64,000 nucleotides of DNA from Chloroflexota bacterium (GTDB taxonomy: Bacteria > Chloroflexota > Anaerolineae > Anaerolineales > Villigracilaceae): NCBI GenBank assembly GCA_016234485.1, contig JACRBL010000055.1:1-64000 (forward strand), written 5' to 3'. Below, piece after piece: positions 16,069-55,303 of this stretch (the stretch's first letter is position 1; each line of letters starts with the position of its first letter). Made by a program: the position numbers and the translations under genes. Below the pieces are notes generated by a model. That model did no database searches. It was not told the origin of the DNA and saw only the letters and a list, made by a program, of their open reading frames with translations.

Positions 16069-16173
16069 AAAGTTCGCGAGCGGTTGAACTGCAAGCCGTC
16101 AGCACGATTTGCCAAGCAAATCGAACTGCTGACGAAACAATGAACTTGTTTTTACACAAGTTCTAAGTTCGCT
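16069..16173. repeat. Stem-loop repeat, AAGTTCGC...AACTGCTGACGAAACA family
   Basis: The stretch starts AAGTTCGCGAGCGGTTG, includes GCCGTCAGC and AACTGCTGACGAAACA, then GAACTTGTTTTTACAC and AAGTTC. The copy at 55136-55245 keeps the same order of segments. Shorter relatives lie at 20619-20675, 22622-22652 and 53118-53195. Confidence 0.65.
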
Positions 16174-16357: not shown

Positions 16358-16443
16358 CGTCATTGCGAGAGCGGCGGTCTTCCGCTCGAAGCAATCTCCT
16401 CGTCCGAGTCGGGATTGCTTCGCGAAGGGCGCTCGCAATGACG
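16358..16443. repeat. Palindromic CGTCATTGCGAG element, copy 1
   Basis: The element begins CGTCATTGCGAG and ends CTCGCAATGACG, with the inner pair GAAGCAATC and GATTGCTTCG. It is 86 bp and lies just before the TTG start of the exporter ATPase. Further copies are annotated at 18336, 19263, 20547, 29675, 39788, 50703 and 54431. Confidence 0.85.
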
Positions 16444-19262: not shown

Positions 19263-19376
19263 CGTCACTGCGAGGAGGGCGATCTTCCCGACGAAGCAGT
19301 CTCCTGGTCGCACGAGGGGATTGCTTCGCACACCTGCCCTGGCGGGTGGTGCCAGGGAAGAACGCTCGCAATGACG
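19263..19376. repeat. Palindromic CGTCATTGCGAG element, copy 3 (with inner insert)
   Basis: Ends CGTCACTGCGAG and CTCGCAATGACG are present with both inner AAGCA-TC blocks. Between GATTGCTTCG and the right end sits an extra CACACCTGCCCTGGCGGGTGGTGCCAGGG hairpin segment that other copies lack. Confidence 0.8.
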
Positions 19377-20546: not shown

Positions 20547-20675
20547 CGTCATTGCGAGCGCTCTTCGCGAAGCAATCCCCTCCTATGACGAGGGGACTGC
20601 CCCCTGGCACTGACCGCCAGGGCAAGTGTGCGAGCCGTCAGCAGTTCAACTGCTGACGAAACACGGAATAGGTTA
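20547..20675. repeat. Half CGTCATTGCGAG element fused to a stem-loop repeat
   Basis: The left half of the palindromic element (CGTCATTGCGAGCG, GAAGCAATCCC) runs into CCCCTGGCA...CGCCAGGG and then GTGTGCGAGCCGTCAGCAG and CTGCTGACGAAACACGG, which belong to the second repeat family. The right half of the first element is absent. Confidence 0.7.
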
Positions 20676-20703
20676 TTGCACGGGTACTAATTCTGGAGTC
20701 GTT

Positions 20704-29024: not shown

Positions 29025-29594
29025 CTAATGAAAAAACACATCCAGCGGCGGCGCCATATTTTCGGGGATGTTTTCGCCCCAAGCGTTGCCATCAATCACT
29101 TCGCCGGTGGGGTTGCCTTCTGAATCGATTTTGAAGAATACGGGGATGCCATCGAAACTGAATCCGTATTGCTCCAAGTCCCAGCCCCAATCGTCCACGT
29201 CAATTTTAATGAGATACACGCCGCGGAAGGCGTTAAGCATGAGTTCGTTTTGATCCGCCAAACTGGCAGATATTTCGCGGCAGGCCGGTCACCACGACGC
29301 GTCAAATTCGACGACGGGCATTAATCCCAGCGCCGCGGCGAAGCGCGCCTGTTCCTCCAATTGGACGTTCAACGCGCCATCTTTTGACAGGATGCGGATC
29401 TGCTCGAACCCACTGACCGGCGCGGACGTTGGCGCGGGCGTGGGTGACGCTTCCGCCTCCGTCGGGACAGCGGTTGGCGTCGTGGACGGCGGCGCGGCTG
29501 TTGGCTCCGCCATGGGAAGGCTGGTCGGCGTCCCCATCAGCGTTTGACAGGCCAGCGTAACGAACAGGGTTGCGATGACAAGAATTTTTTTCAC
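29025..29594 (-). CDS. Candidate selenoprotein: thioredoxin-like lipoprotein with in-frame UGA (W-U-P-A-C)
   Basis: Read through one in-frame TGA (29291-29289), this gene gives a 189-residue lipoprotein. It has a signal with lipobox LFVTLAC, a Thr/Pro/Ala-rich linker to about residue 65, and a thioredoxin-like domain with PVVEFDASW before codon 102 (TGA) and PACREISASLADQ after it. The usual motif is WCxxC, so TGA replaces the first, nucleophilic Cys, and the second Cys (residue 105) is intact. The cis-Pro segment DGIPVFFKI follows and the gene ends in TAG. A 7-bp stem (29271-29265 with 29259-29253) with loop AGUUU starts 17 bases after the TGA. Translation starts at GTG with AAAGGAG. Selenocysteine is an inference; a fresh nonsense mutation or sequencing error is the alternative. 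Confidence 0.7.
29253..29271 (-). promoter_or_regulatory. Candidate bacterial SECIS stem-loop
   Basis: On the minus-strand RNA, AUCUGCC pairs with GGCGGAU (7 bp including one G-U) around the loop AGUUU. The loop G is 26 bases after the UGA, within the 16-37 base window reported for bacterial SECIS elements, and it is one of the first two loop bases, as expected. The stem is short and could be chance. Confidence 0.45.
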
Positions 29595-29674
29595 TGTGTC
29601 TCCTTTCTGAAATCTCCCGAGTATGCTTCCGGAATTTCGGTAAATCACAATTTTACAGTAACACCATATGCAAC

Positions 29675-29800
29675 CGTCATTGCGAGCGCTTTTTCCTGGC
29701 GCCGTGCGGCTTAAGCCGTACCAGGGCAGGTGTGCGAAGCAATCCCCTCCCGCGGCGCGAAGATTGCTTCGTCGGAAAAAGCGCCGTCCTCGCAATGACG
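29675..29800. repeat. Palindromic CGTCATTGCGAG element, copy 5 (with inner insert)
   Basis: Both ends (CGTCATTGCGAGCG and CTCGCAATGACG) and both inner blocks are present. An insert containing CCTGGCGCCGTGCGGCTTAAGCC and CCAGGGCAGGTGTGC lies in the left half. It separates the two redox lipoprotein genes. Confidence 0.85.
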
Positions 29801-29822: not shown

Positions 29823-30392
29823 TTATTTCGCAATCAAATCTGCGCCAGGGATGCGGATGGCGACGACCTTACCCATCACGGGCGGTTTACAGCCGTTGTC
29901 CCCGCAGGCCATGAAGGTGACGATGACCGTTTCGTCCACCCAATCCGCGCTGGGCGGGAGGAGGATGGGCAGAGACAGCGTGACCGCTCCCGCGGGATAG
30001 ACGGGCAGTTGCAGGGCTTCAAATGGTTCGTTGATGGGCGCAACGCTTTCCAATAGTTGGCCGATGATTTGAATCTTTGACCCGCTGGAAAGTTCGATCA
30101 AGGTGGGGCGACCGAGTCCTTCTACGCCATTGCGGGGGATGTCTTTGCCGTAGAGGTGATGATCGGGCGGAGGGGTGAAGGTGGCCGTGAGCAGGATTTG
30201 CCCGAAGGCGTCGCGTGTGAGCGCGATGGACACATCCACGCTGTTTTCGGAGAAGGCCGCGAGATTCATTGCGCTATCGGGCGGGAGGATGGCTTTGGGC
30301 GCGCAGGCCGCGAGCAGAATCGTCAGCGTGAGGAACGCCAGCGAAACGGCGACACGGCGCGAGGTCGGAGTGAGGCGGGGATTTTGTCCCAT
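29823..30392 (-). CDS. DsbD-alpha-like redox lipoprotein
   Basis: The 189-residue product has a lipoprotein signal ending in LLAAC (Cys about residue 30) and a beta-rich domain ending in TVIVTFMACGDNGCKPPV. The C-x4-C pair with Pro-Pro resembles the N-terminal immunoglobulin-like domain of DsbD (CADAGFCYPP in E. coli), which hands electrons to periplasmic thiol proteins. There is no DsbD transmembrane part. The thioredoxin-like candidate selenoprotein lies next downstream on the same strand, which suggests a shared thiol-redox role at the outer membrane face. The ATG at 30392 sits six bases after a -10 box, implying a leaderless mRNA. Confidence 0.8.
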   Translation of the reverse strand: MGQNPRLTPTSRRVAVSLAFLTLTILLAACAPKAILPPDSAMNLAAFSENSVDVSIALTRDAFGQILLTATFTPPPDHHLYGKDIPRNGVEGLGRPTLIELSSGSKIQIIGQLLESVAPINEPFEALQLPVYPAGAVTLSLPILLPPSADWVDETVIVTFMACGDNGCKPPVMGKVVAIRIPGADLIAK

Positions 30393-30398
30393 GCGGTA

Positions 30399-30427
30399 TT
30401 TATACGGGTTTTCGGGCGCGTCCACAA
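30399..30427 (-). promoter_or_regulatory. Promoter for the redox lipoprotein pair
   Basis: TTGTGG (30427-30422), a 17-base spacer and TATAAA (30404-30399) read on the minus strand. The ATG begins seven bases after the -10 box, so no room remains for a leader. Confidence 0.55.
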
Positions 30428-39787: not shown

Positions 39788-39909
39788 CGTCATTGCGAGC
39801 GCTCTTCGCGACACTTGCACCGCACTGCGTTTGGTGCAGTGCAGGTGAGCAATCCCTTCCCCCGCGCGGAGATTGCTTCGTCGGGAAGAGCGCCCTCCTC
39901 GCAATGACG
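39788..39909. repeat. Palindromic CGTCATTGCGAG element, copy 6 (with inner insert)
   Basis: Ends CGTCATTGCGAGCG and CTCGCAATGACG are intact. A small hairpin, CTTGCACCGCACTGC with GGTGCAGTGCAGG, is inserted in the left half. It lies between two convergent genes. Confidence 0.85.
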
Positions 39910-50702: not shown

Positions 50703-50786
50703 CGTCATTGCGAGACGGTGTTCTTCCGTCGAAGCAATCCCCGCACTGGTGAGTAGATTGCTTCGCGAAGAACGCTCGCAATGACG
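50703..50786. repeat. Palindromic CGTCATTGCGAG element, copy 7
   Basis: This 84-bp copy is complete (ends CGTCATTGCGAG and CTCGCAATGACG; inner GAAGCAATC and GATTGCTTCG) and lies between two genes of one operon. Confidence 0.85.
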
Positions 50787-54430: not shown

Positions 54431-54520
54431 CGTCATTGCGAGGAGGGTGGTCTTCCCGACGAAGCAATCTCCTCTCGCAAACGGGGGGATTGCTTCGGGA
54501 AGATCGCCCTCGCAATGACG
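54431..54520. repeat. Palindromic CGTCATTGCGAG element, copy 8
   Basis: A complete 90-bp copy with ends CGTCATTGCGAG and CTCGCAATGACG lies in the leader of lspA. Confidence 0.85.
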
Positions 54521-55135: not shown

Positions 55136-55245
55136 CAAAGTTCGCTAGCAGTTGCGCCCCTGGCAATGCCCGCCAGGGCAGTTGTGCGAGCCATTCAGCA
55201 GTACAACTGCTGAAGAAACACGGAACTTATTTTTACACGACTTTC
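55136..55245. repeat. Stem-loop repeat, second family (full copy)
   Basis: CAAAGTTCGCTAGCAGTTG, a CCCCTGGCA...CGCCAGGG hairpin, GTTGTGCGAGCCATTCAGCAG, CTGCTGAAGAAACACGG and GAACTTATTTTTACAC follow in the same order as at 16069-16173. Confidence 0.65.
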
Positions 55246-55303
55246 AATTGTCCCAACTTTTGCCTTCCGTATTCATCCTTCATCCTTCATCCTTTTCCTC
55301 CCC

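Follow-up and report, generated by a model that had tools for sequence, protein, structure and literature searches.

An in-frame UGA codon in a gene of an Anaerolineales bacterium is almost certainly read as selenocysteine (Sec), and the gene product is very probably an exported Sec-containing thiol-disulfide oxidoreductase. Both readings are drawn from sequence comparison. The gene lies in a stretch of 64,000 nucleotides (the window), next to a gene for a lipoprotein that resembles the alpha domain of DsbD. We give about an even chance to a role for the Sec protein as the gamma-like part of a split relay of DsbD type. A fuller picture, which we put forward more tentatively, is a selenium-dependent split DsbD of an Anaerolineales type: an alpha-like lipoprotein and a gamma-like lipoprotein with Sec, both extracytoplasmic and served by an unlinked CcdA, in which Sec and Cys versions may replace each other within a single bacterial family.

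The Gene and Its Reading Frame

An earlier note, made from the window alone, had described an otherwise intact frame of 189 codons interrupted by one TGA at the first Cys of a WCxxC motif. This frame was recovered as described, with the TGA in the context FDASW-U-PAC, which gives the motif W-U-P-A-C. The GTG start and the ribosome-binding stretch are also in place (Table 1). The count of 88 open codons after the UGA was one too high, since 87 sense codons follow. The protein carries a lipobox-like VTLAC motif (Cys 16), and similar motifs, all recognized by eye rather than by a predictor, occur in its relatives. From the signal and this motif, the protein is predicted to be exported and lipid-anchored.

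Table 1. Positions of the predicted selenoprotein gene, its elements, and the partner gene in the window
Feature	Position	Strand	Description
Predicted selenoprotein gene	29025..29594	(-)	GTG start at 29594, VTLAC, Pro/Thr-rich linker, thioredoxin domain, TAG stop
Predicted Sec codon UGA, codon 102	29289..29291	(-)	TGA in 7/32, TGT/TGC in 25/32 close homologues
Candidate bacterial SECIS hairpin	29253..29271	(-)	AUCUGCC/GGCGGAU 7-bp stem, loop AGUUU, G at loop position 2
Ribosome-binding stretch AGAAAGGAG, 5' of GTG start	29600..29608	(-)	By eye
DsbD alpha (N-terminal)-like lipoprotein gene	29823..30425	(-)	Upstream, same strand; C-x4-C (MACGDNGCKPP)

UGA and Cys in the Homologues

The homologue search covered 152 genomes of the window's family and gave 37 matches in 36 genomes. 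Two fragments without the active site (L063, the match in G101, and L067, the second match in G078) and three distant thioredoxin-like proteins with UGA (L064, L065, and L066) were dropped, and 32 rows were then counted. The column at codon 102 holds UGA or a Cys codon in all 32 and nothing else, so the unrelated residues that the earlier note had named as evidence against Sec do not occur. Judged by its sequences, the family is a classic Sec/Cys pair family. The TGA forms are the window gene and L026, L027, L046, L049, L053, and L054, which are distributed over the genera g1, g16, g6, and g18. Six relatives that carry names are metagenome-assembled genomes of Chloroflexi, Anaerolineae, and Anaerolineales. 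In the seven further genomes of the window's own genus, the family search found no homologue. A class-wide search matched 10 of 396 genomes at E <= 1e-8, eight of which belong to the window's family. The two matches from outside it (G497, 8.8e-44, and G292, 2.0e-9) are Cys forms and stand outside the counts.

The SECIS Hairpin

The earlier note had also placed a 7-bp stem-loop with a G in the apical loop at 17–36 bases after the UGA. The stem and the G stand as described, and the span is 18–36 nt, with the loop starting 24 nt after the UGA. An energy fold of the hairpin closes a further A-U pair, so that the loop shrinks to GUU, which fits too. Taken alone, the 61-nt fold is unremarkable (z = -0.65; matched by 48 of 200 shuffles). 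The significance of the hairpin comes from the comparison with relatives, and the folding energy of the single sequence gives no support.

The consensus for bacterial SECIS elements given in the legend of Figure 2 of PMC13188914 has an apical loop of 3–9 nt, a stem of 4–16 bp, a G within the first two loop positions, and 16–37 nt from the UGA to the loop. All seven UGA forms fall within these limits, with a 5-nt loop, a 7-bp stem, and 24 nt from UGA to loop. The 60 bases from the TGA onward align without gaps across the seven genes. The loop reads [AG]GU[CU]U, with G in column 29 (loop position 2) and T in column 30 in 7/7. Conservation of the stem-loop, which the earlier note had proposed as a check, is complete: columns 21–27 pair with columns 33–39 in all 49 cells. 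Of the seven stem pairs, four are invariant and three change on both sides, namely the pair at the stem base (A-U, G-C, C-G) and two others (A-U/G-U/U-A/U-G and C-G/A-U/U-G).

Doubly changed cells number eight against a shuffled mean of 2.6, and the covariation score is 0.558 against 0.153; in both cases 0 of 500 shuffles reach the observed value, although related sequences may exceed shuffles without any structure. Two further measures are weaker: 134 of 500 shuffles have at least as many doubly changed pairs, and 42 of 500 have at least as many pair types. When the partner strand is slid as a control, 22–39% is paired. The same columns in 24 Cys forms are paired in 22% of cells, without covariation; this control alignment (A3) takes in 24 of the 25 Cys rows and omits L062, in which the helix after CPPC looks shorter.

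With random synonymous recoding as a further control, L046, L049, and L053 showed the full stem at the fixed position in about 5% of draws, which makes these three weaker witnesses singly; the other four did so in 0.1–0.2%. Any 7-bp stem of bSECIS type arose in 5–31% of draws. A perfect stem of this kind anywhere in the range is present in 7/7 close Sec forms and in 1 of 25 Cys forms (L038). A free hairpin search gave median energies of -9.8 kcal/mol for 10 Sec rows, which include the three distant proteins, and -4.4 for 25 Cys rows. It separates the two groups only roughly, with two Cys rows at -22.5 and -15.5, and the fixed-position comparison was relied on instead. A covariance model run on the 152 genomes scored the seven UGA loci, from which it was built, at 67.5–78.7 bits. 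Beyond them, it found one match of 37 bits (L061), and the rest reached at most 27 bits.

Selenocysteine Machinery

The window genome consists of 68 contigs and is 94.4% complete. The earlier note had staked its proposal on the presence of Sec machinery, and selA, selB, selC, and selD were all found. The tRNA-Sec, searched with RF01852, scores 69.3 bits, over the cut-off, and ARAGORN reports it as tRNA-SeC with anticodon tca. The selA (558.3 bits), selB (343.5 bits), and selD (353.9 bits) genes all exceed their curated cut-offs, and selA shares the window's contig. The selD gene has one internal TGA in the context CAG-U-ASK (L022, G000:C8:233500-237000). UxxK is the motif given for Sec-containing SelD (PMC13188914); CAG-U-ASK fits it, and SelD of this genome is probably also a selenoprotein. 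The machinery together with the selD UGA indicates that the genome decodes Sec and that its UGA genes include at least one more from an established selenoprotein family.

The counting rules were set by control genomes. A match to the tRNA-Sec model at E <= 0.001 occurs in 14/14 controls, where presumably other long tRNAs are hit, so a tRNA-Sec was counted if it was over the cut-off or had E < 1e-9. The selB and selD searches match 14/14 controls too and were counted above the curated cut-off alone. Both selA and tRNA-Sec are present in 7/7 genomes with the UGA form. Since selA was matched in 144 of the 152 family genomes, the machinery in UGA carriers discriminates little, and this test could hardly fail. 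The tRNA-Sec is also kept in 21 of the 25 genomes with the Cys form, and loss of the machinery was therefore rejected as the cause of the Cys forms.

The Thioredoxin Domain

The window protein, translated with Cys at the TGA, reaches 25.4 bits against PF00085 (Thioredoxin), whose gathering cut-off is 23.5, and 18.9 bits against the thioredoxin equivalog TIGR01068, below the cut-off of 96.8. The best AlphaFold2 model, built on the 32-row alignment, has a thioredoxin fold with pLDDT 95.0 and pTM 0.89; it is the one of five at this level, the other four lying at 81–84. A structure search with this model lists generic thioredoxins first and DsbD gamma (2fwh, 1uc7, and 2fwe) from rank 27.

Four NCBIfam models match the window protein at E <= 1, and none reaches its own cut-off. 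The best, TsoB (NF045694), scores 22.1 bits against a cut-off of 805, the matching part being the DsbD-like C-terminal end of the profile. At E <= 0.01, it matches 24 of the 32 homologue rows, and PF13098 matches 1 of 32.

The Partner Gene and a Possible Split Relay

The partner gene has 200 codons and is separated from the predicted selenoprotein gene by 228 bases. A homologue lies just upstream of the thioredoxin gene on the same strand at 31 of 32 loci. Conversely, the partner occurs in 33 of the 152 genomes, and 31 of these 33 are among the 32 with the thioredoxin gene. In G117, which has a partner but no thioredoxin match, the sequence ends about 200 bases past the partner. The other such partner, L098 (G100), has no recognizable thioredoxin neighbour even though the contig continues.

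The partner alignment (A4) consists of 28 of the 31 adjacent partners, three partial ones being left out, and the two without a thioredoxin match. Its Cys pair C139 and C144 (CX4C) is invariant in 30/30 rows. Against PF11412 (DsbD_N), the window partner scores 13.6 bits, below the cut-off of 25; among the 30 rows, 21 match at E <= 1, the best at 3.3e-8. The model of the partner (pLDDT 91.4) matches the DsbD alpha structures 6dnv, 3pfu, and 1jpe and the alpha-gamma complex 1vrs, and gamma-adaptin ear domains match it equally well and rank first. Whereas DsbD has its alpha, membrane beta, and gamma domains in one chain, here the alpha-like part (200 codons) and the thioredoxin-like part (189 codons) each have a gene of their own. 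Two DsbD_TM (CcdA-type) genes score over the cut-off in the window genome, one beside a DsbA-like gene (by eye), and both lie at other loci.

The membrane domain of DsbD hands electrons to gamma, which passes them on to alpha. In the gene described here, SelB and tRNA-Sec, guided by the hairpin past the UGA, almost certainly place selenocysteine at the N-terminal, nucleophilic position of the UxxC site of the thioredoxin domain. In the proposed relay, the exported, lipid-anchored protein would work outside the membrane. It would take electrons from a CcdA-type membrane protein encoded at another locus and would reduce the neighbouring DsbD-alpha-like lipoprotein via the CxxxxC pair of the latter.

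The strongest competing explanation, to which we give a little under an even chance, accepts the selenoprotein and places it outside a DsbD-type relay. It might be a free-standing extracytoplasmic thioredoxin, or the reductant of a peroxidase or a methionine-sulfoxide reductase, and the upstream gene might have another function, for example as an Ig-like redox-sensing or metal-binding lipoprotein. The higher ranks of general thioredoxin structures over DsbD gamma, the unlinked ccdA, and a window partner that falls under the DsbD_N cut-off and is equally like adaptin ear domains all agree with it. The relay is favoured instead by the DsbD_N matches in 21 of 30 partner rows, by the DsbD alpha structures among the top matches, by the near-perfect pairing of the two genes, and by the DsbD-like end of TsoB as the best NCBIfam stretch.

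Other Readings of the UGA Codon

If the UGA stood for a different amino acid, through a code change or ordinary read-through, the hairpin would be incidental. UGA read-through is known in general, and nothing specific in the present data points to it. In the window, 13 of the 41 non-overlapping open reading frames of at least 200 codons, a mechanical rather than a curated gene set, end in TGA, which bears out the earlier statement that UGA serves there as an ordinary stop. Moreover, the alternative residue is Cys in 25 of 25 cases, and the hairpin covaries in the UGA forms and is absent from the 24 Cys forms as a group. This makes a different amino acid at the UGA highly improbable.

The chance of a nonsense mutation or sequencing error in an ordinary Cys thioredoxin is negligible: TGA is one base from TGC or TGT and the Cys forms are commoner (25/32), but TGA recurs at this codon in seven genomes of four genera, so that a base error is very unlikely, each copy has the same covarying hairpin, the Sec machinery is present, and L046 and L049 are under purifying selection 3' of the UGA (dN 0.15, dS 1.20). 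For L026 and L027, dN/dS is about 0.5, with few changes. The value for L053 and L054 3' of the SECIS was set aside, since these two differ in length by one codon and are out of register.

A Probable Sec-to-Cys Change and a Relic SECIS

The 37-bit match of the covariance model (L061:1621-1680, + strand) belongs to a Cys homologue of genus g18 that has TGC at the site. It keeps five of the seven stem pairs and has the loop GGCCU. In a tree of both proteins, L061 groups with the Sec form L053 inside a Sec clade (99/95). When the thioredoxin domain is used alone, the support for L061/L053 is 91/58, and that for the fork with L054 is 100/99. The L061 genome, which is 86% complete, contains selA, and a tRNA-Sec was not found in it. 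Remnants that resemble SECIS elements are on record downstream of Cys codons in other families (PMC1794560), and L061 appears to have switched from Sec to Cys recently, leaving its SECIS in decay.

The tree of both proteins comprises the 28 loci having both genes and needs two Sec/Cys changes. When L062 and the out-of-family Cys homologue L076 are added, three changes are needed; both rows sit on very long branches, in a tree whose deep forks do not resolve. An ancestral Sec with two losses was dropped as an account at this step. A direction can be assigned to the L061 change alone, because of its relic SECIS. The seven Sec forms have the SECIS at one position and with a common loop, which suggests that they descend from one Sec ancestor.

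Relation to Known Systems

DsbD gamma, which works next to the alpha domain, shares the thioredoxin fold and a WCxxC-type site with the window protein. Unlike DsbD gamma, the window protein is a separate, predicted lipoprotein without a fused membrane domain, in which Sec would take the place of Cys. TsoB is a selenoprotein resembling a rhodanese/DsbD fusion. Its motif is given as UxxxxU (PMC13188914), whereas the window protein has UxxC, and in its 189 residues there is no rhodanese part. The thiol:disulfide interchange selenoprotein (PF13098, UxxC; PMC13188914) is likewise a UxxC thiol-disulfide oxidoreductase, and PF13098 matches a single row here.

The closest known kind is the thioredoxin of PF00085 with UxxC, which PMC13188914 gives as an experimentally verified selenoprotein family. 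Both have the thioredoxin domain, a UxxC site with an N-terminal Sec, and Cys homologues. Unlike Sec thioredoxin, the window protein has an export and lipobox-like signal, a Pro/Thr linker, and a DsbD-alpha-like partner gene. By its domain, it would fall under the known UxxC thioredoxin selenoproteins, and the suggestion in the earlier note of a new selenoprotein holds in part: the family as such was already verified, and the exported, lipoprotein-type subfamily with its partner appears to be new. The absence of an NCBIfam home and the few class-wide matches point to an exported subfamily that is restricted to a lineage and has a partner of its own, within a known kind. In a full-text search of open-access papers, no title or abstract on this protein was found.

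The standard code reads such genes as two fragments, so the use of Sec in this large and mostly uncultured phylum is perhaps undercounted. The family also offers a natural series for asking why a single active site retains Sec or loses it, from Sec with a covarying SECIS, through Cys with a relic SECIS, to Cys without a SECIS, in genomes that mostly keep the machinery. It points to selenium chemistry in extracellular thiol reduction.

Distant UGA Genes and Dispersed Repeats

Among the distant proteins dropped from the counts, L064 (UGA at 1534, + strand) and L066 (UGA at 1677, - strand) are thioredoxin-like genes of lipoprotein type with W-U-P-[AT]-C. Their hairpins past the UGA covary (GCCCGU/ACGGGC and GCCCAU/AUGGGC, loop CGUGC), and the two are possibly a second selenoprotein family. 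The genes downstream of them resemble what we take to be SAM hydroxide adenosyltransferases. L065 (UGA at 1689, - strand) combines a repeat-like N-terminal region and a likely membrane segment with a W-U-P-A-C thioredoxin domain in its C-terminal part; a 6-bp hairpin (loop GGU) follows the UGA.

Two dispersed repeats were observed in the window. The first is a palindromic element, found at 29676-29799, 16359-16442, 19264-19375, 39789-39908, 50704-50785, and 54432-54519, whose ends resemble GTCATTGCGAGG and stand inverted about 80–125 bp apart. The end motif has 16 matches with at most two mismatches against 2.5 expected. The copy at 29676-29799 sits between the partner gene and the predicted selenoprotein gene. 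Its sequence suggests a small mobile element, or one of REP type, that is non-coding. The second repeat is 43 nt long and has three copies, at 16124-16166, 20648-20690, and 55205-55247, two of which are 77 and 81% like the reference copy.
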